A DNA stretch of 24,568 nucleotides. Source: a virus. Location: positions 1-24,568 of IMG/VR virus record IMGVR_UViG_3300007819_000002. One strand, 5' to 3'. Of the stretch, positions 6,412 to 24,568 are shown in pieces. Made by a program: the position numbers and the translations under genes. Under the pieces are notes generated by a model. That model saw only the letters and a list, made by a program, of their open reading frames with translations, was not told where the DNA came from and did not search any database. The stretch's first letter is position 1, and each line of letters begins with the position of its first letter.

Positions 6412-7248
6412 ATGACAAGCGAACCGATAAACAAACTCATTGCCTTGGAGCGTCGCGTCAAGCTTCTTGAGATGCGGTTGGAAGCATTCGATCCGGACTT
6501 AACTCGCAATCCGTTTAGAATGTCGCCTAAGCCAATGCACGAGAGCAACGTCGCCAGCTTCAACTCGCCTCGCTACAATCCCGCAGGCTGGATCATCGCC
6601 GTCCTTGCCGATGCAGAGCGCGATATGCTGGTTGAGGCAATCGCGGACGCAATCCAGCGTGGAGCAACCGACGCACCCAAGCGGATGCACGACACGCTGA
6701 ACGATGCCAGCAGCCTTGCGGCATCCGTTGTGCGTGACTTCGATTCGGGCTTAGATCGCAGCGGTGATGGCGTCGCACTTCATTCCATCTCGCATCCGAA
6801 TTGGCCGACGTGGGAAGATATGGAGGCAGAGATCGCGAATCGCGGCACTCAATTAGCATCGAGGCTTGTAACCATCGAAGCGCTGACGAAGGAGCGCGAC
6901 GCATTGCGGGCCCAGGTTGATGCGGACCTCGACAAGATCGAAGCCGACCGCAGGATGATCGAGACGTTGCGAATGGAGTTGACCCAAGCCAAGGCGTATC
7001 CAACCGTCGAAGCTTACGAGGCCGTATGCAAGGCGCATAACTCCCGCATCGAAGCGAACGAGAAGTTGACTCGTGAGCTTGCCGAGGCACGACAAGGACG
7101 ATGGCCCGAAGTCGTTCAATCCTTGAACGATGGCATCGACCAAGTCAAGCGACTCCAAGCCGAGAACGCACAGCTCAAGGCAGCGCTGTTGCAGCAGCCA
7201 CCGAACCAAGCACAGCAGCAGACGCGGCAGCACGGAGTCGAGCGATGA
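6412..7248 (+). CDS. Coiled-coil protein with a C-terminal GRWP module
   Basis: A 278-residue protein beginning MTSEPINKLIALERRVKLLE, an N-terminal coiled coil. A central portion (SPRYNPAGWIIAVLADAERD) is followed by long heptad-rich helices from about residue 140 to 268 (IEALTKERDALRAQ, RLQAENAQLKAALL). The C-terminal segment AEARQGRWPEVV recurs in the next gene. SD is AGAGGAAC. Its stop overlaps the next ATG by 4 bp. Function unknown; a scaffold or DNA-associated role is possible. Confidence 0.75.
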   Translation: MTSEPINKLIALERRVKLLEMRLEAFDPDLTRNPFRMSPKPMHESNVASFNSPRYNPAGWIIAVLADAERDMLVEAIADAIQRGATDAPKRMHDTLNDASSLAASVVRDFDSGLDRSGDGVALHSISHPNWPTWEDMEAEIANRGTQLASRLVTIEALTKERDALRAQVDADLDKIEADRRMIETLRMELTQAKAYPTVEAYEAVCKAHNSRIEANEKLTRELAEARQGRWPEVVQSLNDGIDQVKRLQAENAQLKAALLQQPPNQAQQQTRQHGVER

Positions 7249-7517
7249 ACCTACCGACCGATCTCGCGGCGACGATCAACGTGGCAACCGATGCCATCGA
7301 AGCTCTCGGATCTACAATTGCCGCCACGCTTCAAGAGAACGAGGAGCTAAAGGCCGCGCTGGCCGAGGCACGGGCTGGACGATGGCCGGGAGCAATCGAT
7401 CAGCTCGAGAGCTACGTCCGCAAGTTCCGGGCCCAACGTGCTGAGATAACCGTGCTGCAGAACCGATGCAAGCAACTCGAAGCGGCACTTGCGGCATGGA
7501 AGGAAACAGCGGCATGA
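7245..7517 (+). CDS. Coiled-coil protein (90 aa), paralogue of the upstream C-terminus
   Basis: The ATG at 7245 lies in the ATGA overlap; a longer in-frame extension upstream is the antiparallel shadow of the previous gene. The product begins MNLPTDLAATINVATDAIEA and contains AEARAGRWPGAI, the same module as the C-terminus of the upstream protein. A heptad helix ending LQNRCKQLEAALAAW follows. A 27-bp DNA segment is 22/27 identical between the two genes, indicating duplication. It is coupled to the downstream zinc-ribbon gene by ATGA. Confidence 0.75.
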   Translation: MNLPTDLAATINVATDAIEALGSTIAATLQENEELKAALAEARAGRWPGAIDQLESYVRKFRAQRAEITVLQNRCKQLEAALAAWKETAA

Positions 7518-7756
7518 AACCGTTTCGTTGGCTACAATGTCGTGATTGCGGATGGGAGATGGAATACGCTGCTGCGGTCAATCAGTGCGGTGATTGCGGA
7601 CGGTATGGAACGATGCACGTCCATTCCAACGTTGACGGTGAATTACCCCAGCAACTCCCTCAGCACTCTCCATCATGCAGCAACCAAAACGTCCTTGATC
7701 CGGCTGGCGCGTATCGCGGTGCGGAAGAATGCAGTTGTCAACCGAAGCCTTTCTAG
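7514..7756 (+). CDS. Zinc-ribbon-like protein (80 aa)
   Basis: The start at 7514 is in an ATGA overlap with the upstream stop. The N-terminus contains two CxxC pairs, CRDCG (residues 9-12) and CGDCGRYG (25-28), as in a rubredoxin-like zinc ribbon. A Gln/Pro/Ser-rich tail and a second C-C pair follow (ECSCQPKPF). This suggests a small metal-binding adaptor or transcription-associated factor. No family named. Confidence 0.7.
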   Translation: MKPFRWLQCRDCGWEMEYAAAVNQCGDCGRYGTMHVHSNVDGELPQQLPQHSPSCSNQNVLDPAGAYRGAEECSCQPKPF

Positions 7757-7801
7757 CCACATGGCTCTTTATAGCCTCTATAGCGTATGCTGCCGCCCCG
7801 C

Positions 7802-8344
7802 ATGGCAAAGCGGCGCATCATCGGTGATAAGAAGCATACGCCACCTTCAGCGTCGTTCGCTCCTGACCACTTGGATCTCGTGCGTATGATCGCTATGCGA
7901 GGAGCGGACGATACCGAGCTGGCCCGCACGTTCGGCGTTACATTGCCGGTATGGAAAGCATGGAGAGAGCAGTACCCCTCCCTCAACGACTCCATCGACA
8001 AGGGGCGCATGGTACCGGATGCCGAAGTCACCGTCTCCCTCTATAAGCGCGCGATCGGTTACGACTACGTTGAAGATGCCGCTGTCGGTGGACGAGATCC
8101 GTGCGTCCTTGAAGTCAAACGTCATTCACCCCCCGATGTCGGTGCGATCAAGTATTGGCTCAACAACCGCAAGTCCGAACATTGGGTCGATAAGACTCGG
8201 TCAGAGCACACCGGCAGGGACGGCGGTCCTATCGGTGTGAAGGCCGAAACCAGAAACGATTTGATCGACGCCATCATGACCCTTGTCGCTGCCAAGCCTG
8301 ATGGTCCATCGAAGCCACCACCCAGCTCGCAGAAGAAAGTTTAG
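7802..8344 (+). CDS. terS: Terminase small subunit
   Basis: A 180-residue protein. An N-terminal HTH-like region (LARTFGVTLPVWKAWREQYP) is followed by the small-terminase signature SLYKRAIGYDYVEDAAVGG and, near residue 105-130, PPDVGAIKYWLNNRKSEHW, which is diagnostic of phage TerS proteins. TerS recognises the packaging site and loads the large subunit. The second ATG is chosen; the first, five codons upstream, has no better ribosome site and lies within a TATGCT box. The C-terminus ends in a Pro/Ser/Lys tail. The gene is about 5.5 kb upstream of TerL, with an accessory block inserted between them. Confidence 0.8.
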   Translation: MAKRRIIGDKKHTPPSASFAPDHLDLVRMIAMRGADDTELARTFGVTLPVWKAWREQYPSLNDSIDKGRMVPDAEVTVSLYKRAIGYDYVEDAAVGGRDPCVLEVKRHSPPDVGAIKYWLNNRKSEHWVDKTRSEHTGRDGGPIGVKAETRNDLIDAIMTLVAAKPDGPSKPPPSSQKKV

Positions 8345-8373
8345 TTGATCCATTCCTTTCAAGGAGTTTCGTC

Positions 8374-8541
8374 ATGGAAATTTTCGCATTCATCATCCTC
8401 GTGTTCGCTTTCGTCTTCTGTGCAATCGCCTCGCGCTTTGCCGTTCCGGCACCCTGGAATCTCGGATGGCTAGGCGTGGCGCTGTTGATCCTCTTCTTCA
8501 TCATCACCACGGCACCCAAAGCCTTCGAACACTACCACTGA
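8374..8541 (+). CDS. Small two-segment membrane protein (55 aa)
   Basis: A 55-residue protein with two hydrophobic segments, about residues 3-20 (IFAFIILVFAFVFCAIAS) and 30-48 (LGWLGVALLILFFIITTA), separated by a short polar turn. The C-terminus ends AFEHYH. AAGGAG precedes the ATG by about eight bases. Two-pass proteins of this size include holins, but there is no adjacent endolysin and no dual-start motif; holin is only one possibility. It overlaps the next tiny gene by one base. Confidence 0.65.
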   Translation: MEIFAFIILVFAFVFCAIASRFAVPAPWNLGWLGVALLILFFIITTAPKAFEHYH

Positions 8542-8615
8542 TGACTATCCTCGTGACTATCCTAGGCGTAATCATCCTGGTGATCGTCCTTTTGTGGTTC
8601 TTGCGGTTGTTGTGA
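8541..8615 (+). CDS. Micro-protein with one membrane segment (24 aa)
   Basis: The ATG overlaps the previous TGA by one base (TGATG), a typical coupled re-initiation site. All but a few of its 24 residues are hydrophobic (TILVTILGVIILVIVLLWF), so it would be a single membrane helix. The small size leaves the call uncertain, but position and coupling support a real cistron. Confidence 0.5.
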   Translation: MTILVTILGVIILVIVLLWFLRLL

Positions 8616-8673
8616 GTCTATGAAGTGAGGACGGCCAAGGACTTGCGATGAACGCAATGCCAAGATCATCGAG

Positions 8674-8799
8674 ATGAGGATGAACAACTTCTCGTACAAA
8701 GAGATTGCCAAACGTCTCGGCGTCAGCGTGAACTGCGCCCGTGTCGCTTTCTCTCACCGTCCCATCAACAGCCACGCGGGGCAGCATGTCAGAGAATAA
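8674..8799 (+). CDS. HTH protein, N-terminus interrupted by an in-frame TGA
   Basis: From the ATG at 8674 the product (41 aa) is MRMNNFSYKEIAKRLGVSVN, a clear helix-turn-helix, ending in FSHRPINSHAG. The same frame continues upstream to an ATG at 8620 with a stop (TGA) as third codon: MK-stop-GRPRTCDERNAKIIE. GRPR followed by a helix is typical of such small regulators, so the TGA may be a point mutation from CGA (Arg). The shorter start lacks a strong ribosome site. It is either a decayed regulator or a re-initiated short form. It overlaps the next gene by 14 bp. Confidence 0.5.
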   Translation: MRMNNFSYKEIAKRLGVSVNCARVAFSHRPINSHAGQHVRE

Positions 8800-9172
8800 C
8801 TCATTGATCGAGATTGACGGTAATTCATCCAACTGCTTCTCGGTCTGGGGTAGTGGAAAGAAATTCTTCTTCACTACTTACGAAATCGAAGGACCAGATC
8901 GGCGGGCTGTCAAGAAAGCTGGCGATGAAACTATTGCCAAGATCATCGCTAAGATCAAAGTGTCCCCGTGGCCCACGATAGTTTGGAGATGTCGGCCATA
9001 CATCTTCGAACAGAAAGAGCACTACGGCCCACGCTGGGTACCGGTATTCAGCTGGTATTGCCGTTTAGTCACTCTCCCTTATATCGGGCCGTTCGAGTTC
9101 AATAAACCTGAAGGTAATCCCTATACACGAATCGATGCCGAAGGTCGAGTGGTGCAGCATGTCGGAAGATGA
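8786..9172 (+). CDS. Hypothetical protein (128 aa)
   Basis: The ATG at 8786 (context GGGCAGCATGTC) is preferred over an upstream start that lies in the HTH gene. The product begins MSENNSLIEIDGNSSNCFSV; the central region is aromatic- and Cys-containing (IVWRCRPYIFEQ, PVFSWYCRLV). The C-terminus ends GRVVQHVGR. The strand-rich pattern suggests a compact beta fold. No family recognised. It overlaps both neighbours by 14 bp. Confidence 0.65.
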   Translation: MSENNSLIEIDGNSSNCFSVWGSGKKFFFTTYEIEGPDRRAVKKAGDETIAKIIAKIKVSPWPTIVWRCRPYIFEQKEHYGPRWVPVFSWYCRLVTLPYIGPFEFNKPEGNPYTRIDAEGRVVQHVGR

Positions 9173-9353
9173 ACGTCTCGGGGATTCGAAGTCTAGCGAG
9201 GCTGAGATCTCCGCACGCAACACTTGGCAGAACATGAGGATGGCCAATGCGGCAGGCTGGACCAAAGATGAATGGAACTTCTTCCTCGATACCGGCAGAT
9301 ACCCAAAAGAACAGGAGGAGCGAAGTGAATGTCGCAGAGACCCGATCTACTAA
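9159..9353 (+). CDS. Hypothetical acidic protein (64 aa)
   Basis: Begins at 9159 within the end of the previous gene, with the context GTGCAGCATGTC, nearly the same as the 8786 start. The product MSEDERLGDSKSSEAEISAR is acidic; a second half reads NAAGWTKDEWNFFLDTGRYP, a likely helical pair with several Trp/Phe. The final residues include CRRDPIY. Its 3' end overlaps the start of the exported protein by 29 bp. No family recognised. Confidence 0.6.
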   Translation: MSEDERLGDSKSSEAEISARNTWQNMRMANAAGWTKDEWNFFLDTGRYPKEQEERSECRRDPIY

Positions 9354-9654
9354 GTACCTACTCCTGTTGCTTCTGCTTCTAGGCCCGGTAACCTTCGCAG
9401 CCGACACGCCAGTCCATGCTGTGATGTACGAATTCACGTATAATGCCACTACGCTGACCATCACGCACGCTCAGGTGATCGGCGGCTATCCGAGCGTTGA
9501 TGAATGTCGAGAGGCGATGCCGCGCGTCGTCGCACTCGGTGGTCCTAATCTCGATCAGGGGGAGAAGATGCAGTTGCAGTGCTCTGGCATCCGCGTACCA
9601 GCTGCTGAAGACTCCGATTCGGATGTGATCGTTGTTCCGTCTAAACCTATTTGA
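9325..9654 (+). CDS. Exported protein with signal peptide (109 aa)
   Basis: GTG start at 9325 with a strong AGGAGGAGCGAA upstream. The N-terminus is a textbook Sec signal peptide: basic NVAETRSTKY, then LLLLLLLLGPVTFA, with predicted cleavage after AFA before ADTP. The mature protein (about 82 aa) is beta-rich (VMYEFTYNATTLTITHAQV) with two Cys (ECREA, LQCSGI) that could form a disulphide, and a Val/Asp-rich tail. The gene lies directly before the secreted GH26 enzyme, so both products would pass through the host envelope. Function unknown. Confidence 0.7.
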   Translation: MNVAETRSTKYLLLLLLLLGPVTFAADTPVHAVMYEFTYNATTLTITHAQVIGGYPSVDECREAMPRVVALGGPNLDQGEKMQLQCSGIRVPAAEDSDSDVIVVPSKPI

Positions 9655-9661
9655 GGCACAT

Positions 9662-11107
9662 ATGAAAAGACTCATCCTCGCCGCAGCCCTTCTTCTCTGC
9701 GGCTTCGACATCCAGGCCCAACAGCTGACGGGCGCGATCACTGTCGGCGGGGTCACTTACCAGGTGACTGGCCAGCCAATGTCGTCCAGCAGTTCGTCCT
9801 CATCTAGTTCATCTAGTTCGAGTTCTTCGTCAAGTTCTTCATCGTCGTCCTCGAGCTCATCGAGTGGTGGATCCAGCGGTGCCTCGACCATCCCTCCGGC
9901 CACGAATCTGACCGACGCTACGGGAGCAGTCTGGACGATCAGCGCCAGCTTGGTGATGCGTAACGGCGTCCACGCAGGCAACAGCGCCAACGCCAATGGC
10001 ATGGCGATACTCGGTGGAGTTGCCGTTCACCGCAATACCTCGGGCTCATGCTATTCTTGGATCGGCGGCACTGGAACAGGTTGGGCGGCACTGGCAGGAT
10101 GTCCTGCTATCCCTCCGGCCGTGTCTAGTTCATCTAGCAGCAGTTCTTCGTCTTCATCGAGCAGTTCTTCATCTGGTGGTTCATCGTCCTCGAGCAGTTC
10201 AGGCGGCTCGGCATCTTCTGGTGGCACTCCCTCAACGCTGCTGAATTACATACAAGGACTTCCCACACAGACCAAACATATCCTGATCGGGCAGCATGAG
10301 AATATCTGGGACAGCAACCCGATGGACAGCGTGACGCCGATCCCCACGATGTCTGGCGTCAACGGCAAGCAAGTCGCCATCCTCGGAACCTCGAACGACT
10401 GGGATAACTTCTCGACCAACTTCGTTACCAACACAAACGCCTGGCTCGCCAAGGGCGGTATCGTGATGGTAACGCAGGAGGCGCCGAATCCGATTCCTAG
10501 TGGCGCTGCGGTAACTGACATATGGACTACAGGTACCACGGCCAATACGAATTGGAAGAACTACCTCAATGCGCAGATCGCGAAGTTCAAACAACTTACT
10601 GGCATGGTTATCTGGCGTCCGTTCACCGAGCCCAACGGCAATCACTTCGGTAGTCAATTCACTGGAGCGCAATTCTCAACGCTGTTCCAGTACACGCACG
10701 ACTACTGCATCTCGCAGGGCCTGAACAACGTGCTGTGGGAGTTCAACGTCAACAACACGGCCAACTCAGTTGCCGCATGGTACCCCGGCAACAGCTATGT
10801 GGACCTTGTCAGTGTTGACTCTTATCCCCCGTCAACGTCGCAGATGGGCGGTATCTATAATTTCTTCTTGACTACCGGCAAACCGATTATCATTGCTGAA
10901 ACGGGAAAGACTTGGAATAACTCAGCTATAACCCCTAATAGCTACGACAACAGCATCATCCTCAATTACGTGAAGGCGAATTTTCCCAAGGTCATCGCCA
11001 TCATGTACTGGTGCCAGAACATGGGGCTGAATATTCAGAATGGAACGGCCACGGTATTAAACGACCCTGTCGCTATCCCATTGTCTGGTCTGCCGGTACT
11101 GCACTGA
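9662..11107 (+). CDS. Secreted modular glycoside hydrolase, GH26-like, with polyserine linkers
   Basis: A 481-residue protein. Residues 1-20 are a signal peptide (MKRLILAAALLLCGFDIQAQ). A short beta segment, 28 consecutive serines (41-68), a Gly/Ser spacer, an approximately 75-residue module with a Cys pair (SCYSWIGG...AGCP) and a second linker of 17 plus 7 serines follow. The catalytic (beta/alpha)8 domain occupies about 189-481. GH26 beta-mannanase hallmarks are WRPFTEPNG (probable acid/base Glu323) and IIAETGK (probable nucleophile Glu413). The family commonly cleaves mannans and related glucans; the substrate is not known. The modules resemble soil and aquatic polysaccharide degraders, so host-derived transfer is likely. 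Start at ATG 9662 after GAGGCACAT. Confidence 0.8.
   Translation: MKRLILAAALLLCGFDIQAQQLTGAITVGGVTYQVTGQPMSSSSSSSSSSSSSSSSSSSSSSSSSSSSGGSSGASTIPPATNLTDATGAVWTISASLVMRNGVHAGNSANANGMAILGGVAVHRNTSGSCYSWIGGTGTGWAALAGCPAIPPAVSSSSSSSSSSSSSSSSSGGSSSSSSSGGSASSGGTPSTLLNYIQGLPTQTKHILIGQHENIWDSNPMDSVTPIPTMSGVNGKQVAILGTSNDWDNFSTNFVTNTNAWLAKGGIVMVTQEAPNPIPSGAAVTDIWTTGTTANTNWKNYLNAQIAKFKQLTGMVIWRPFTEPNGNHFGSQFTGAQFSTLFQYTHDYCISQGLNNVLWEFNVNNTANSVAAWYPGNSYVDLVSVDSYPPSTSQMGGIYNFFLTTGKPIIIAETGKTWNNSAITPNSYDNSIILNYVKANFPKVIAIMYWCQNMGLNIQNGTATVLNDPVAIPLSGLPVLH
9782..9865 (+). repeat. Polyserine-coding tract 1 in the GH26 gene
   Basis: Twenty-eight serine codons in a row, using TCN and AGY codons in mixed order, encoding the linker after the short N-terminal segment. 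Mixed codons show the tract is kept for its protein sequence and is not a simple slipped microsatellite. Such linkers separate carbohydrate-active domains in secreted enzymes. Confidence 0.85.
10124..10201 (+). repeat. Polyserine-coding tract 2 in the GH26 gene
   Basis: Seventeen serine codons, two glycine codons, then seven serine codons, again in mixed codon use. It separates the small central module from the catalytic domain. A Gly/Ser/Ala spacer follows up to the catalytic domain. Confidence 0.85.
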
Positions 11108-11624: not shown

Positions 11625-12293
11625 ATGAATACTCTGACGAGCATAGATGAATTTGCCAACATACATCTTCATGTCGATCCGATCACGGTCAATGTCGTGC
11701 ATCGGGCCGATCCCGAGTTGATTGAGTTGATTAAATCCCTCAAAGGAGATATTGCAATTATGAGTGCTACCGTACAACAGGCTCTTGACGAGCTAACTGC
11801 CGATGTGACCCAAGAAACCACCGTGGACCAGAGTGCCGTCACCCTGATCCAGGGCATGCCAGCGCTGATCTCAGCAGCCGTGGCATCAGCCCTCGCTGCC
11901 GGCGCGACTCCGGCTCAGCTCGCCGCTTTCGACGCGCTGAATGTATCCCTGCAGGCGAATGCCACCGCTCTGGCGGCTGCCGTGACTGCAGGTTCGGGAA
12001 CTGGAACCGGAACTGGTACTGGAGGAACTCCCGTTTCTCCGGCGATCACTGCACAGCCGGCTGCGGCCAGTGTTGCGATTGGTTCTACCGGATCGTTCTC
12101 TGTGGTTGCGACGGGAACTCCCGCCCCGACCTACCAGTGGAACAAGAACGGTGTTGCGATTCCAGGAGCGACTTCCTCGAGCTACGTGACACCTGCGACC
12201 GTTGCGGCCGATAATGGCGCATCGTTCACAGTCACTGTGACTAACTCGGCGGGCAGTGTTACCAGCACGCCGGTCGTCATGAGCGTTGCCTAA
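11625..12293 (+). CDS. Ig-like-domain virion-associated protein
   Basis: A 222-residue protein. Residues 1-40 are beta strands (NIHLHVDPITVNVVH), then a helical linker resembling a common phage coiled segment (VQQALDELTADVTQETTV, AVTLIQGMPALISAA). A Gly/Thr-rich hinge GTGTGTGTGG follows. Residues 138-220 form an Ig-like domain with the typical signature GSTGSFSVVATGTPAPTYQW, DNGASFTVTVTN and GSVTS. Ig-like domains on phage particles decorate heads or tails and may bind carbohydrate or host surfaces. It is located before the terminase-head genes. The start at 11625 has only a weak site (GAGATAAACCC). Confidence 0.72.
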   Translation: MNTLTSIDEFANIHLHVDPITVNVVHRADPELIELIKSLKGDIAIMSATVQQALDELTADVTQETTVDQSAVTLIQGMPALISAAVASALAAGATPAQLAAFDALNVSLQANATALAAAVTAGSGTGTGTGTGGTPVSPAITAQPAAASVAIGSTGSFSVVATGTPAPTYQWNKNGVAIPGATSSSYVTPATVAADNGASFTVTVTNSAGSVTSTPVVMSVA

Positions 12294-13820: not shown

Positions 13821-15317
13821 ATGTCAGATCCCGCTGCCGACATAGGAAGTATCCGAGACCGCACGGTACTCGCAGCTAAACTCTCTGAATTTTCCACGCA
13901 AGACCTTCTGCTTCTCCGCTGGCAGTTAGCCTGGAAGGCCCAAGCCAGGATTAAGCAACTCCCTCCCGAAGGGGAATGGAGAATTTGGGGTATCCGTTCC
14001 GGTCGCGGATTCGGCAAGACGCTAGCAGCCTCGCAATGGATGGGGCAAGAGGCTGCGCGCGATCCTAATTCCTACAATTTCGTGGTCGCGCCGAAGTACG
14101 ATGATGTTAGGTATACTTGTTTCGAAGGCCCTACGGGTCTTTTTTCTGTGATTCCACAGAACTTGATCGAGGATTACAACTTAACATTGCCATCGATCAC
14201 CCTGACAAATGGAGCTTTTATCCGTGGATTTGGTGCAGATGCCCCAGAACGGCTGCGTGGACCTCAATGTCATCGAGTTTGGTGTGAGGAAATAGCCTCT
14301 TGGCGCTATCCGAAGGAGACTTGGGACAACTTGATGTTCGGTTTGCGCCTCGGCAAGAAGCCTCGAGTGATGTGGACTGGTACGCCTAAGCCAAAACCCT
14401 TCATACGTGTTCTTCAGAACATGCCGAAGTCGATCGTAGTGACCGGCTCTACCTACGAAAACTCAGAAAACCTGGATGATGCCTACTACGAGAACATTGC
14501 CAAGTATGAGGGGACCGCGATAGGGCGTCAAGAGATCTATGGAGACATCCTAGACCCTGAGGATGCAGGATTTGTCAAGCGCCGAGACTGGAGAATCTGG
14601 CCTTCGAAGAAGAAATTACCGAAATTCAGGTTCATAGTGATGTCTCTTGACACTGCTTTCACTGAAAACACCTTCAATAAGCGTGAGCAGACTGGAGATC
14701 CCACTGCCTGCACTGTCTGGGGGCTCTTCGAATACGACCACCTAGAGAATATCATGCTTCTTGATGCCTGGGAAGAGCATTTGGGCTTTCCAGCATTGAT
14801 CAAACGTGTGAAATCCGAGATGACTTTCACCTATGGAGACGCAGATGAGCCTCTTTTGAGGCCTTTGGTATCAGATAAGTCTCTGGCCCCTCGGCATCAA
14901 GGAAGAACCCCTGATGTTATTCTGATTGAGAATAAGGGGAGTGGCATTTCCTTACGGCAGCAGCTTGCCGTGGAAAATATATTCACGGAGCCGTATAATC
15001 CCGGCGACTTAGACAAACTGTCGAGATTACATGCGTGCTCCCCGCTCTTCCCTGCCCGGCGCATATGGGCCGTGGAATCCGACCGGAATCCCGGCGAGCC
15101 TCGGTCGTGGGGCGAGCCAGTTATCTCGCAAGTATGTACGTACGTAGGCGAAGGCTCTCTCGAACACGACGACTTGCTCGACACGAGCACGCAGGCCCTT
15201 CTCTATCTGATGCACAAATACAGAATCAAATTTACTTCGCGTCCCGATCCGGGAGCGGAGACTGCCAAAGCCCTCGAAGCACTCAAGCGTAAGGAAAGGA
15301 AGAGTCCCTATGGCTGA
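13821..15317 (+). CDS. terL: Terminase large subunit (ATPase/nuclease)
   Basis: A 498-residue DNA-packaging motor. The N-terminal ATPase has a Walker A-like GIRSGRGFGKT (residues 57-67, Lys66), a Walker B VWCEE (153-157) with Glu as catalytic residue, and the coupling motif WTGTPK (185-190). The C-terminal RNase H-like nuclease has acidic residues in VMSLDTAF (Asp277), IENKGSG (Glu369) and HDDLLD (Asp449/450). All motifs are in the usual order and the length is normal for TerL. There is no ribosome site before the ATG, but a TATGCT box lies six bases upstream. It overlaps the portal gene by 8 bp. Confidence 0.95.
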   Translation: MSDPAADIGSIRDRTVLAAKLSEFSTQDLLLLRWQLAWKAQARIKQLPPEGEWRIWGIRSGRGFGKTLAASQWMGQEAARDPNSYNFVVAPKYDDVRYTCFEGPTGLFSVIPQNLIEDYNLTLPSITLTNGAFIRGFGADAPERLRGPQCHRVWCEEIASWRYPKETWDNLMFGLRLGKKPRVMWTGTPKPKPFIRVLQNMPKSIVVTGSTYENSENLDDAYYENIAKYEGTAIGRQEIYGDILDPEDAGFVKRRDWRIWPSKKKLPKFRFIVMSLDTAFTENTFNKREQTGDPTACTVWGLFEYDHLENIMLLDAWEEHLGFPALIKRVKSEMTFTYGDADEPLLRPLVSDKSLAPRHQGRTPDVILIENKGSGISLRQQLAVENIFTEPYNPGDLDKLSRLHACSPLFPARRIWAVESDRNPGEPRSWGEPVISQVCTYVGEGSLEHDDLLDTSTQALLYLMHKYRIKFTSRPDPGAETAKALEALKRKERKSPYG

Positions 15318-18395: not shown

Positions 18396-18656
18396 ATGGG
18401 CGTCGTTGAGAAGTACTTGGCCGAGCTAGAGGAGCTGAAATCGAAGACCGCAATCGACTCATTAGCCAATCCGGCGTCGAAAGATGCGTATGGCTTAGGA
18501 GTCGCAGTAGGAATTCAGCAAGGGTTGACTCTTGCAAGATCTACGCTCGAGAAAGTACTGAAAGGAGATGAAGAGGATGAACCGATCCGTCGAGAGGGAG
18601 AAGAGCCCCTTATCAGGCCCAAGTGGGATCGTACCCGTACGTCCAAGCGTGTCTGA
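18396..18656 (+). CDS. Conserved helical phage protein (86 aa)
   Basis: Begins MGVVEKYLAELEELKSKTAI, a helix, then DAYGLGVAVGIQQGLTLA and a second helix (ARSTLEKVLKG). An acidic then basic tail (GDEEDEPIRREGEEPL...RTRTSKRV) follows. Small proteins of this type (helix, YGLGV-G-QGL, helix) sit in many phage head clusters, role unknown. AAGGAGGGGG is about 14 bases upstream of the ATG, longer than usual. Its 3' end overlaps the co-chaperonin reading frame. Confidence 0.65.
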   Translation: MGVVEKYLAELEELKSKTAIDSLANPASKDAYGLGVAVGIQQGLTLARSTLEKVLKGDEEDEPIRREGEEPLIRPKWDRTRTSKRV

Positions 18657-19050
18657 TACGATGGAGAGAGCTTTTCCAGTCTGCGATTGCCAACATAAAG
18701 CCTTCGGCAATAGCGTGATCGTACAGATCCGTACTCCTCGCTCCAAGAGCGATGGAGGAATTGCTCTGCCGCAGGAATCTCGAGAAACCGAGAAGTGGAA
18801 TACGCAGGTGGGGAAGGTCATTTCCATAGGACCTCTCTCTTTCAAGGATCGAGATACTCTCAAGCCATGGCCTGAAGGGCCTTGGTTCAAAGAAGGGGAT
18901 TTCGTCCGAGTGCCGAAATACGGTGGTGATCGCTGGGAAGTTCCAGTGCCTGGACACCCAGACGGCTCTGCTCTCTTCGTGCTCTGTCCAGAGCTAGACG
19001 TGAGAGCCGAGATCACCGGCGATCCCCTCAAAGTCATTGCGTATCTGTAG
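18577..19050 (+). CDS. GroES-like co-chaperonin
   Basis: The product has the GroES fold order: KAFGNSVIVQI (first strands), TPRSKSDGGIALPQE (the GroEL-contacting mobile loop), TQVGKVISIGPLS, WFKEGDFVRVPKYGGD (the GDxV barrel motif) and ALFVLCPELDVRAEI. Phage co-chaperonins such as T4 gp31 replace GroES and enlarge the GroEL cavity for capsid-protein folding. No GroEL is visible. The start at 18577 has AAAGGAGATGAAGAGG upstream but overlaps the previous gene by 80 bp; an ATG at 18661 without a good ribosome site would give a 129-aa form. Insertions relative to bacterial GroES resemble other phage types. Confidence 0.78.
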   Translation: MNRSVEREKSPLSGPSGIVPVRPSVSDTMERAFPVCDCQHKAFGNSVIVQIRTPRSKSDGGIALPQESRETEKWNTQVGKVISIGPLSFKDRDTLKPWPEGPWFKEGDFVRVPKYGGDRWEVPVPGHPDGSALFVLCPELDVRAEITGDPLKVIAYL

Positions 19051-23680: not shown

Positions 23681-23835
23681 TGCCTACCTCTACTGGAGTC
23701 TGCGGCTCATCCGTGATAGGAGCTGGAGTGGTTGGAACGGGTGTGTCGGGCGGCGGTACCTCTGGAAGTAATGTTCTCGTAACTGCCAGTGGAGTTCCGA
23801 TCACCACTGCAAGTGGAGTGAAGATCAAAACATGA
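23680..23835 (+). CDS. Small Gly/Ser/Thr/Val protein (51 aa)
   Basis: The ATG shares one base with the previous TAA (TAATG) and the stop overlaps the next ATG by four (ATGA). The sequence is low-complexity: VIGAGVVGTGVSGGGTSGS, then TASGVPITTASGVKI. Beta-rich repeats of this sort are common in small virion adaptors of the tail-fibre region. Function unknown; position favours a structural or fibre-associated role. Confidence 0.6.
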   Translation: MPTSTGVCGSSVIGAGVVGTGVSGGGTSGSNVLVTASGVPITTASGVKIKT

Positions 23836-24568
23836 ATATCTTAAGACATCTATGGGTATTGATGCTCATCGGAGCCGCAACTGCACAGGTTACGATTCCT
23901 AATTTGCCAGCTAATGCGGCACCGGCAGCAGCCGATCTTGTCGTAACGCAGGAGCAACCCACTGCTCGGGACGGCGATGGTACGGTAAAAACGACTCTCA
24001 CGCAGCTTGCGACGTTCGATGCTTCGGTAAATAATTCCGCAAATGCTACGCTTACTAACAAGACGGTAAGCAGTGCCAACAACACCGTCACGATTGACTG
24101 CAACACGGCGACGTGCAGCAACTTCCCTGCTGGCAGCCCGGCTAATCCTACTGCCAAAGTAGGCACGAGTGCCGTCAATGGTTCGGCCTCTACTTTTATG
24201 CGTTCAGACGCATCGCCGCCGGTTGATCTGACATTTTCTCCTACGTGGACTGGCACGCACACCTTCAACGGAACGGTCGCTGGAACTGGCCTATCCACCT
24301 ATGTAACCAATTTCCTAGCAGCCTCTCCCACGCTGGTGACTCCTGCTCTAGGCACACCCTCCTCGGGCGTTGCCACGAGCATTACTGGGCTGCCTCTCAC
24401 TACTGGCGTGACCGGCGTATTGCCTATCGCAAACGGCGGCACTAACGCCACGACACTTGCCGGCGCGAACATCCCGGTATTGTCAGGGACACCGACCGCT
24501 GGGCATTGTGTTGAGTGGTTGTCATCGACGGTGCTGGAAGATGCTGGGGCCGCTTGCGGCAGCGGCGG
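23832..24568 (+). CDS. Tail-fibre-like protein, partial (right edge)
   Basis: This frame remains open for 245 codons to the window edge. The N-terminus is an apparent signal peptide (MNILRHLWVLMLIGAATA, cleavage before QVTIPNLP). The body carries typical phage tail-fibre repeats: TWTGTHTFNGTVAGTGL, SPTLVTPALGTPSSGVATSI, TGLPLTTGVTGVLPIANGGT. These beta-rich segments trimerise and contact the host surface. The start overlaps the preceding stop. A signal peptide on a virion fibre is unusual and may be a hydrophobic anchor or membrane-associated assembly signal instead. The receptor tip lies outside the window. Confidence 0.8.
   Translation, partial: MNILRHLWVLMLIGAATAQVTIPNLPANAAPAAADLVVTQEQPTARDGDGTVKTTLTQLATFDASVNNSANATLTNKTVSSANNTVTIDCNTATCSNFPAGSPANPTAKVGTSAVNGSASTFMRSDASPPVDLTFSPTWTGTHTFNGTVAGTGLSTYVTNFLAASPTLVTPALGTPSSGVATSITGLPLTTGVTGVLPIANGGTNATTLAGANIPVLSGTPTAGHCVEWLSSTVLEDAGAACGSG

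Follow-up and report, generated by a model that had tools for sequence, protein, structure and literature searches.

The viral DNA analysed here, a 24,568-nucleotide fragment of a tailed-phage genome referred to as the window, carries between its two terminase genes a gene for a multidomain protein with a predicted export signal, polyserine linkers, a small all-beta module and a catalytic domain of glycoside hydrolase family 26 (GH26). We propose that the gene is accessory to the phage and encodes an exported or released GH26-fold depolymerase acting on a glycan of the host matrix, a reading to which we assign a probability of about 0.5. The family, fold and catalytic residues of the enzyme, the conservation of its architecture in a second phage and the location of related genes next to lysis genes form the basis of this proposal.

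Domain architecture and catalytic domain

The gene spans positions 9662-11107 of the window (plus strand, as all window features given below), starts with ATG, ends with a stop codon and encodes 481 amino acids. It was assigned as an exported polyserine GH26 protein from this open reading frame, from a match to the GH26 profile PF02156 (E 1.9e-16), and from its architecture and dN/dS in comparison with a homologue in a second phage, G001. The domain order is signal peptide, short spacer, 28 serines, a module of 75 residues, tracts of 17 and 7 serines, and the GH26 domain. In the N-terminal sequence MKRLILAAALLLCGFDIQA, a charged n-region is combined with a hydrophobic core, and cleavage after A19 is plausible. 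By a simple rule on hydropathy and visual inspection rather than by SignalP, residues 1-19 (9662-9718) are predicted to form a Sec signal peptide, which supports the one proposed in a preliminary description of this DNA, and the G001 homologue, P0010, likewise starts with one. A lipoprotein processed at LLLC-G is unlikely, as the residue at -1 is leucine and the G001 homologue has no such cysteine.

The serine tracts, described before as 28 and 17+7 residues in mixed codons, were found as such at residues 41-68 (linker 1; 9782-9865), 155-171 (linker 2a; 10124-10174) and 174-180 (linker 2b; 10181-10201). All six serine codons are present, with TCN and AGY in mixed order. Since these two types are not interconvertible by single synonymous changes, the tracts are kept at the protein level and do not represent slippage repeats, ruling out a simple-repeat artefact. 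Across the six frames of the window, only one other run of at least six serines occurs (6 Ser at 8489). With a signal peptide by the simple rule and polyserine tracts between its domains, the protein has the features of a polyserine-linked secreted glycanase. The earlier link of this design to polysaccharide degraders is borne out by the literature, which describes such linkers for Saccharophagus and Cellvibrio (PMC2386152).

The catalytic domain comprises 292 residues at the C-terminus (190-481; 10229-11104). The whole protein matched PF02156 with 60.7 bits at a Pfam cut-off of 20.2, which rules out a chance match, and the catalytic domain alone gave an E-value of 5.8e-17. In a PDB sequence search with the protein, the matches were almost throughout GH26 enzymes and GH26 fusions. 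An AlphaFold2 model of the domain, built on an alignment of 13 sequences, is an eight-stranded (beta/alpha)8 barrel (mean pLDDT 81, pTM 0.86), and its best 40 PDB fold matches were all GH26 enzymes or GH26-derived constructs, led by mannanases of Bacillus and Klebsiella (TM up to 0.83). Among the residues invariant across 13 GH26 domains are R130, E134, N136, D197, Y199, E224 and W261 (domain numbering). E134 corresponds to E323 of the protein (codon 10628-10630), the presumed acid/base, which is located after strand 4 in the motif WRPFTEPNG (residues 318-326) and aligns with RPLHE of the mannanase KMAN (7eet). E224 corresponds to E413 (codon 10898-10900), the presumed nucleophile at the end of strand 7 in IIAETGK (residues 410-416), which aligns with LVEVG of the same enzyme. 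In the model, this placement is the clan GH-A arrangement. Profile, barrel model, fold matches and catalytic residues agree on the GH26-type domain that the preliminary description had read from the two motifs; loss of the glutamates in homologues or another fold, which would have spoken against it, was not observed. As no peptidoglycan-degrading domain was found in the protein, an endolysin is ruled out.

Among GH26 enzymes with established activities, mannans are the main substrates, and some members cleave mixed-linkage glucans or xylans. The residue before the acid/base glutamate is threonine in the window protein and its G001 homologue but histidine in the other 11 aligned GH26 domains, this histidine being typical of GH26 and not a formal family criterion. 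The acid/base loop of the phage pair reads TEPNGNHF, compared to HExNGxWFWW in canonical mannanases. An unusual substrate is therefore plausible and the protein should not be called a mannanase; the mannan-like substrate considered earlier is not supported by these residues. The altered loop also speaks against an auxiliary metabolic gene, in which case the enzyme, secreted by the infected cell, would break down mannan-like polysaccharide of plants or algae to nourish that cell during infection. We regard this as rather unlikely, even though degraders of plant and algal polysaccharides have enzymes of the same multidomain polyserine design (PMC2386152), a further example being a bacterial protein with polyserine linkers before GH26 (L172; catalytic domain about 24% identical to that of the window protein), and soil viruses provide precedents, with a GH5 endomannanase shown to be active (PMC6786970) and a GH26 mannanase entry listed for mangrove soil viruses (PMC6460857).

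The module between the polyserine linkers

A module of 75 residues (75-149; 9884-10108), delimited by its profile relatives and an AlphaFold2 model, is located between the linkers. A small cysteine-containing module had been noted at this place; the module itself stands, but its two cysteines are not kept in the G001 relative. It gave no Pfam match, had no relatives in annotated phages and did not match any PDB entry by profile. A profile built from six module copies found matches in secreted proteins of the Burkholderiaceae Paraburkholderia, Caballeronia and Trinickia (loci L068-L138). These proteins have Tat- or lipoprotein-like N-termini and one to five tandem copies of the module before a catalytic domain that, from its sequence, is putatively of clan GH-A; Pfam gave no match for this domain in two of them. 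One of the genes lies about 2.5 kb from a gene for an exopolysaccharide tyrosine autokinase (L066). The module further occurs in two GH26 proteins on IMG/VR contigs (L162 and L169).

The model of the module is all-beta, with the strands in two groups (pLDDT 85). In a fold search, the best match was the lectin tectonin 2 of Laccaria (5fsc; Foldseek probability 0.99, TM 0.60) at an E-value of 0.18, which is not significant. A phmmer comparison with the designed propeller Ika8 gave an E-value of 1.6e-4 with no stretch passing alone, at most consistent with a blade. The module may be a two-blade propeller unit and may bind glycans. Of the undescribed carbohydrate-binding domain that had been considered, the absence from Pfam holds and carbohydrate binding is at most suggested. 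A phage-only distribution is ruled out by the copies in secreted proteins of Burkholderiaceae. The module offers an entry point to a domain family of secreted bacterial proteins that is as yet undescribed.

Genomic context and related genes in other phages

As stated in the preliminary description, the GH26 gene is flanked by the genes of the small (7802-8344; phrog_309, E 4.1e-35) and large (13821-15317; Terminase_6N, phrog_2) terminase subunits and adjoins a second gene for a protein with a signal-peptide-like N-terminus. The latter is located directly upstream (9325-9654) and was identified as a GTG-started open reading frame with an AGGAGG site and by hydropathy. The interval also holds small membrane proteins, among them a small protein with two transmembrane segments by hydropathy (8374-8541), which is holin-like in size only; family searches with these two proteins, holins included, gave no match. 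Downstream follows a protein with an Ala-rich segment and an Ig-like domain (11625-12293; Ig_3, E 1.8e-7). Within the window, the GH26 gene has no recognised lysis gene next to it, its neighbours being unknown genes between the terminases. Uptake or sugar-metabolism genes were not recognised nearby either, a further argument against an auxiliary metabolic gene.

The large terminase is 48% identical to those of the Caulobacter phages GB2A, RLK, KcrB and RW. Because the interval between the terminase genes is short in RLK and free of GH26 in L008, the closest terminase relative, the GH26 gene is considered accessory. Host contamination is ruled out by phage hallmark genes on the same strand on both sides and by the occurrence of the same protein in the terminal-repeat phage G001. 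Two further observations were made on the head and packaging genes: the window encodes a GroES-like co-chaperonin among the head genes (18568-19050; phrog_3188, E 1.3e-9), and the large terminase of L008 (5682-8036) has an apparent intein-like insertion of about 290 residues, identified by eye, with the ends CTIADTLVFTKTGERRIVDIQVGDEVLTRSG and FFANGILVHN.

G001 (IMGVR_UViG_3300027645_000001), a phage of 61.9 kb whose two ends match exactly over 99 bp, is the one close relative found in IMG/VR. A scan of this database for W-R-P-x-T-E-P-N-G returned this contig only, the window's own record possibly being excluded from such scans. P0010 of G001 has the same architecture as the window protein (signal peptide, 33 serines, module, long serine tracts, GH26), and the two GH26 domains are 72% identical. 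For the catalytic domains, dN was 0.21 and dS about 1.9, resulting in a dN/dS of about 0.11. As judged from these sequence comparisons, the exported architecture is under purifying selection in two distantly related phages. In addition, G001 encodes a second protein composed of signal peptide, polyserine and GH26, P0011 (PF02156 E 1e-11), whose gene (G001 26398-28083; L005 6398-8080) adjoins the portal region. Beyond the GH26 proteins, the window and G001 have one further common segment by blastp, in which the 11625-12293 protein and G001 60391-61281 are 51% identical over 51 residues; the G001 protein carries the Ala-rich segment in fusion with an SLT transglycosylase. The large terminase of the window had no match in G001, though G001 encodes its own terminase, indicating that the two phages are not close kin. 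As little else is common to both, the GH26 gene has either moved between phages or been kept across a deep divergence.

In G001, the gene order over the circular junction is large terminase, coiled-coil/transmembrane protein, SLT-domain protein, protein with two transmembrane segments, unknown protein, putative NlpC/P60-like protein (recognised by eye only, without a family match) and then GH26. On the contig L162, the GH26 gene is located directly downstream of a GH108 endolysin gene. It is chiefly because of this linkage to lysis genes in G001 and L162 that a role directed at release or at the matrix is preferred, and the same linkage argues against an auxiliary metabolic gene. The L162 protein (7138-9301) differs in its layout: this phage GH26 lacks a signal peptide, carries a copy of the module at its C-terminus and has proline-rich linkers.

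In a GH26 tree of 26 rows, the window/G001 pair forms its own long branch (support 100/99), which joins P0011 weakly (91/71), and the tree contains no bacterial sequence close to the pair. Relatives of the GH26 protein in annotated phages were found only in three gut phage records, at 24-27% identity. In searches of about 780 genomes, sampled from one phylum (399) and one class (385) so that a closer donor could lie beyond them, all GH26 domains found were distant ones. A scan of genome contigs with the GH26 pair also gave no match, which is weak evidence of absence as its two automatic patterns were narrow. An auxiliary metabolic gene would derive from a cellular metabolic gene; the sampled genomes contained no close cellular homologue. 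The lack of a close bacterial mannanase relative there or in the tree argues against this explanation as well.

The phage depolymerases known so far are mostly tailspikes of the virion, and the protein might similarly join the particle, its signal peptide notwithstanding. Some tail-fibre-like proteins in these phages indeed also start with signal peptides, the N-terminal segment of P0011 is common to a fibre-like protein in L063, and the GH26 gene of L167 closes a tail-gene run. Neither the window protein nor its G001 homologue, however, has a recognised tail or attachment domain, neither is encoded in a tail-gene run, and signal peptide and polyserine linkers suit a soluble exported enzyme, making a virion-associated depolymerase improbable. 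The signal peptides on tail-fibre-like proteins would not be expected on components of a particle that is assembled in the cytoplasm; they were observed in the window (23832-24566), in G001 (38748-41258, internal start), in L063 (7992-9779) and twice in L167 (1782-3833 and 4377-8219).

Proposed role and comparison with known systems

In the proposed role as a matrix depolymerase, the accessory phage gene would give rise to a multidomain GH26-fold retaining endo-glycanase, which the predicted signal peptide would direct through Sec into the host envelope and which would then be secreted further or freed at lysis. The small all-beta module may tether the enzyme to the glycan, and the polyserine linkers, by analogy with bacterial enzymes, would act as flexible spacers. 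The barrel, in which both glutamates are in place, would cut the polymer via the two-glutamate retaining mechanism. The likeliest target would be a glycan in the capsule, exopolysaccharide or biofilm matrix that the host itself produces, and its cleavage would release the progeny and give them access to neighbouring cells.

From the sequences, this role is favoured by the exported architecture being kept in G001 under purifying selection together with a second exported polyserine-GH26 protein there, and by the module, which otherwise occurs in secreted proteins of Burkholderiaceae, one of them encoded near an exopolysaccharide tyrosine autokinase gene. On the other side, export past the periplasm would require a further step, the gene has no recognised lysis gene beside it in the window, the lectin-like fold match of the module is not significant, and the activity range of GH26 is as compatible with a polymer from plants as with one from bacteria. 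The predicted export signal and the accessory position of the gene, absent from the interval in L008 and RLK, would also suit an enzyme that modifies the infected cell itself by trimming a glycan of a receptor or the capsule, blocking superinfection or re-adsorption of progeny instead of promoting release. Phage-driven surface conversion of hosts is a general precedent for such a function; the linker-and-module design, however, points to an extended external polymer, and we regard surface modification as very unlikely.

A further-reaching version of the matrix role is tentative and as a whole unlikely: the two phages might represent a GH26 subfamily found only in phages (TE variant), whose specificity for a polysaccharide of the bacterial matrix would be new. 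The exported enzyme would be directed by a two-blade propeller lectin module, as yet undescribed and common to secreted proteins of Burkholderiaceae, and would open the matrix at the time of lysis, as a type of phage release protein active beyond the cell wall. If the matrix role is true, a conserved exported multidomain glycanase tied to lysis genes would represent a different phage route past host slime, and a reason for caution before all viral enzymes of the hemicellulase type are labelled auxiliary genes of carbon cycling.

The open-access literature searched contained no report of an exported polyserine-GH26 protein in phages. With the solved GH26 enzymes, such as Man26 of Bacillus subtilis (2whk/3cbw) and KMAN of Klebsiella oxytoca (7eet), the window protein shares PF02156, the barrel (TM up to 0.83) and both glutamates, but it is only about 20% identical to them, has threonine for histidine before the acid/base and a changed loop thereafter. 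The polyserine-linked glycanases of Saccharophagus and Cellvibrio (PMC2386152) likewise combine signal peptide, polyserine linkers, accessory module and glycoside hydrolase domain, whereas the window protein is phage-encoded and its accessory module is of another kind. The module's best fold match, although not significant (E 0.18), is to tectonin-type beta-propeller lectins (5fsc), of which it would represent only about two blades. Among viral enzymes, the levan-degrading GH32 enzymes of the Bacillus phages SP10, phiNIT1 and SPG24 (PMC4595243) are also phage-encoded soluble glycoside hydrolases with host exopolysaccharide as proposed target; they belong to another family and are reported without signal peptide. 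The glycoside hydrolases of soil viruses (PMC6786970, PMC6460857, PMC9485262), including a GH75 chitosanase (PMC9485262), resemble the window protein as glycan-degrading enzymes of phages from uncultivated samples, but are of another family or are presented in the main text without sequence detail, and the texts consulted do not describe an exported, module-bearing design with two linkers or a linkage to lysis genes. Viral glycoside hydrolases, GH26 included, are thus already on record, and it is the exported polyserine, module-bearing GH26 variant that seems to be new in phages.
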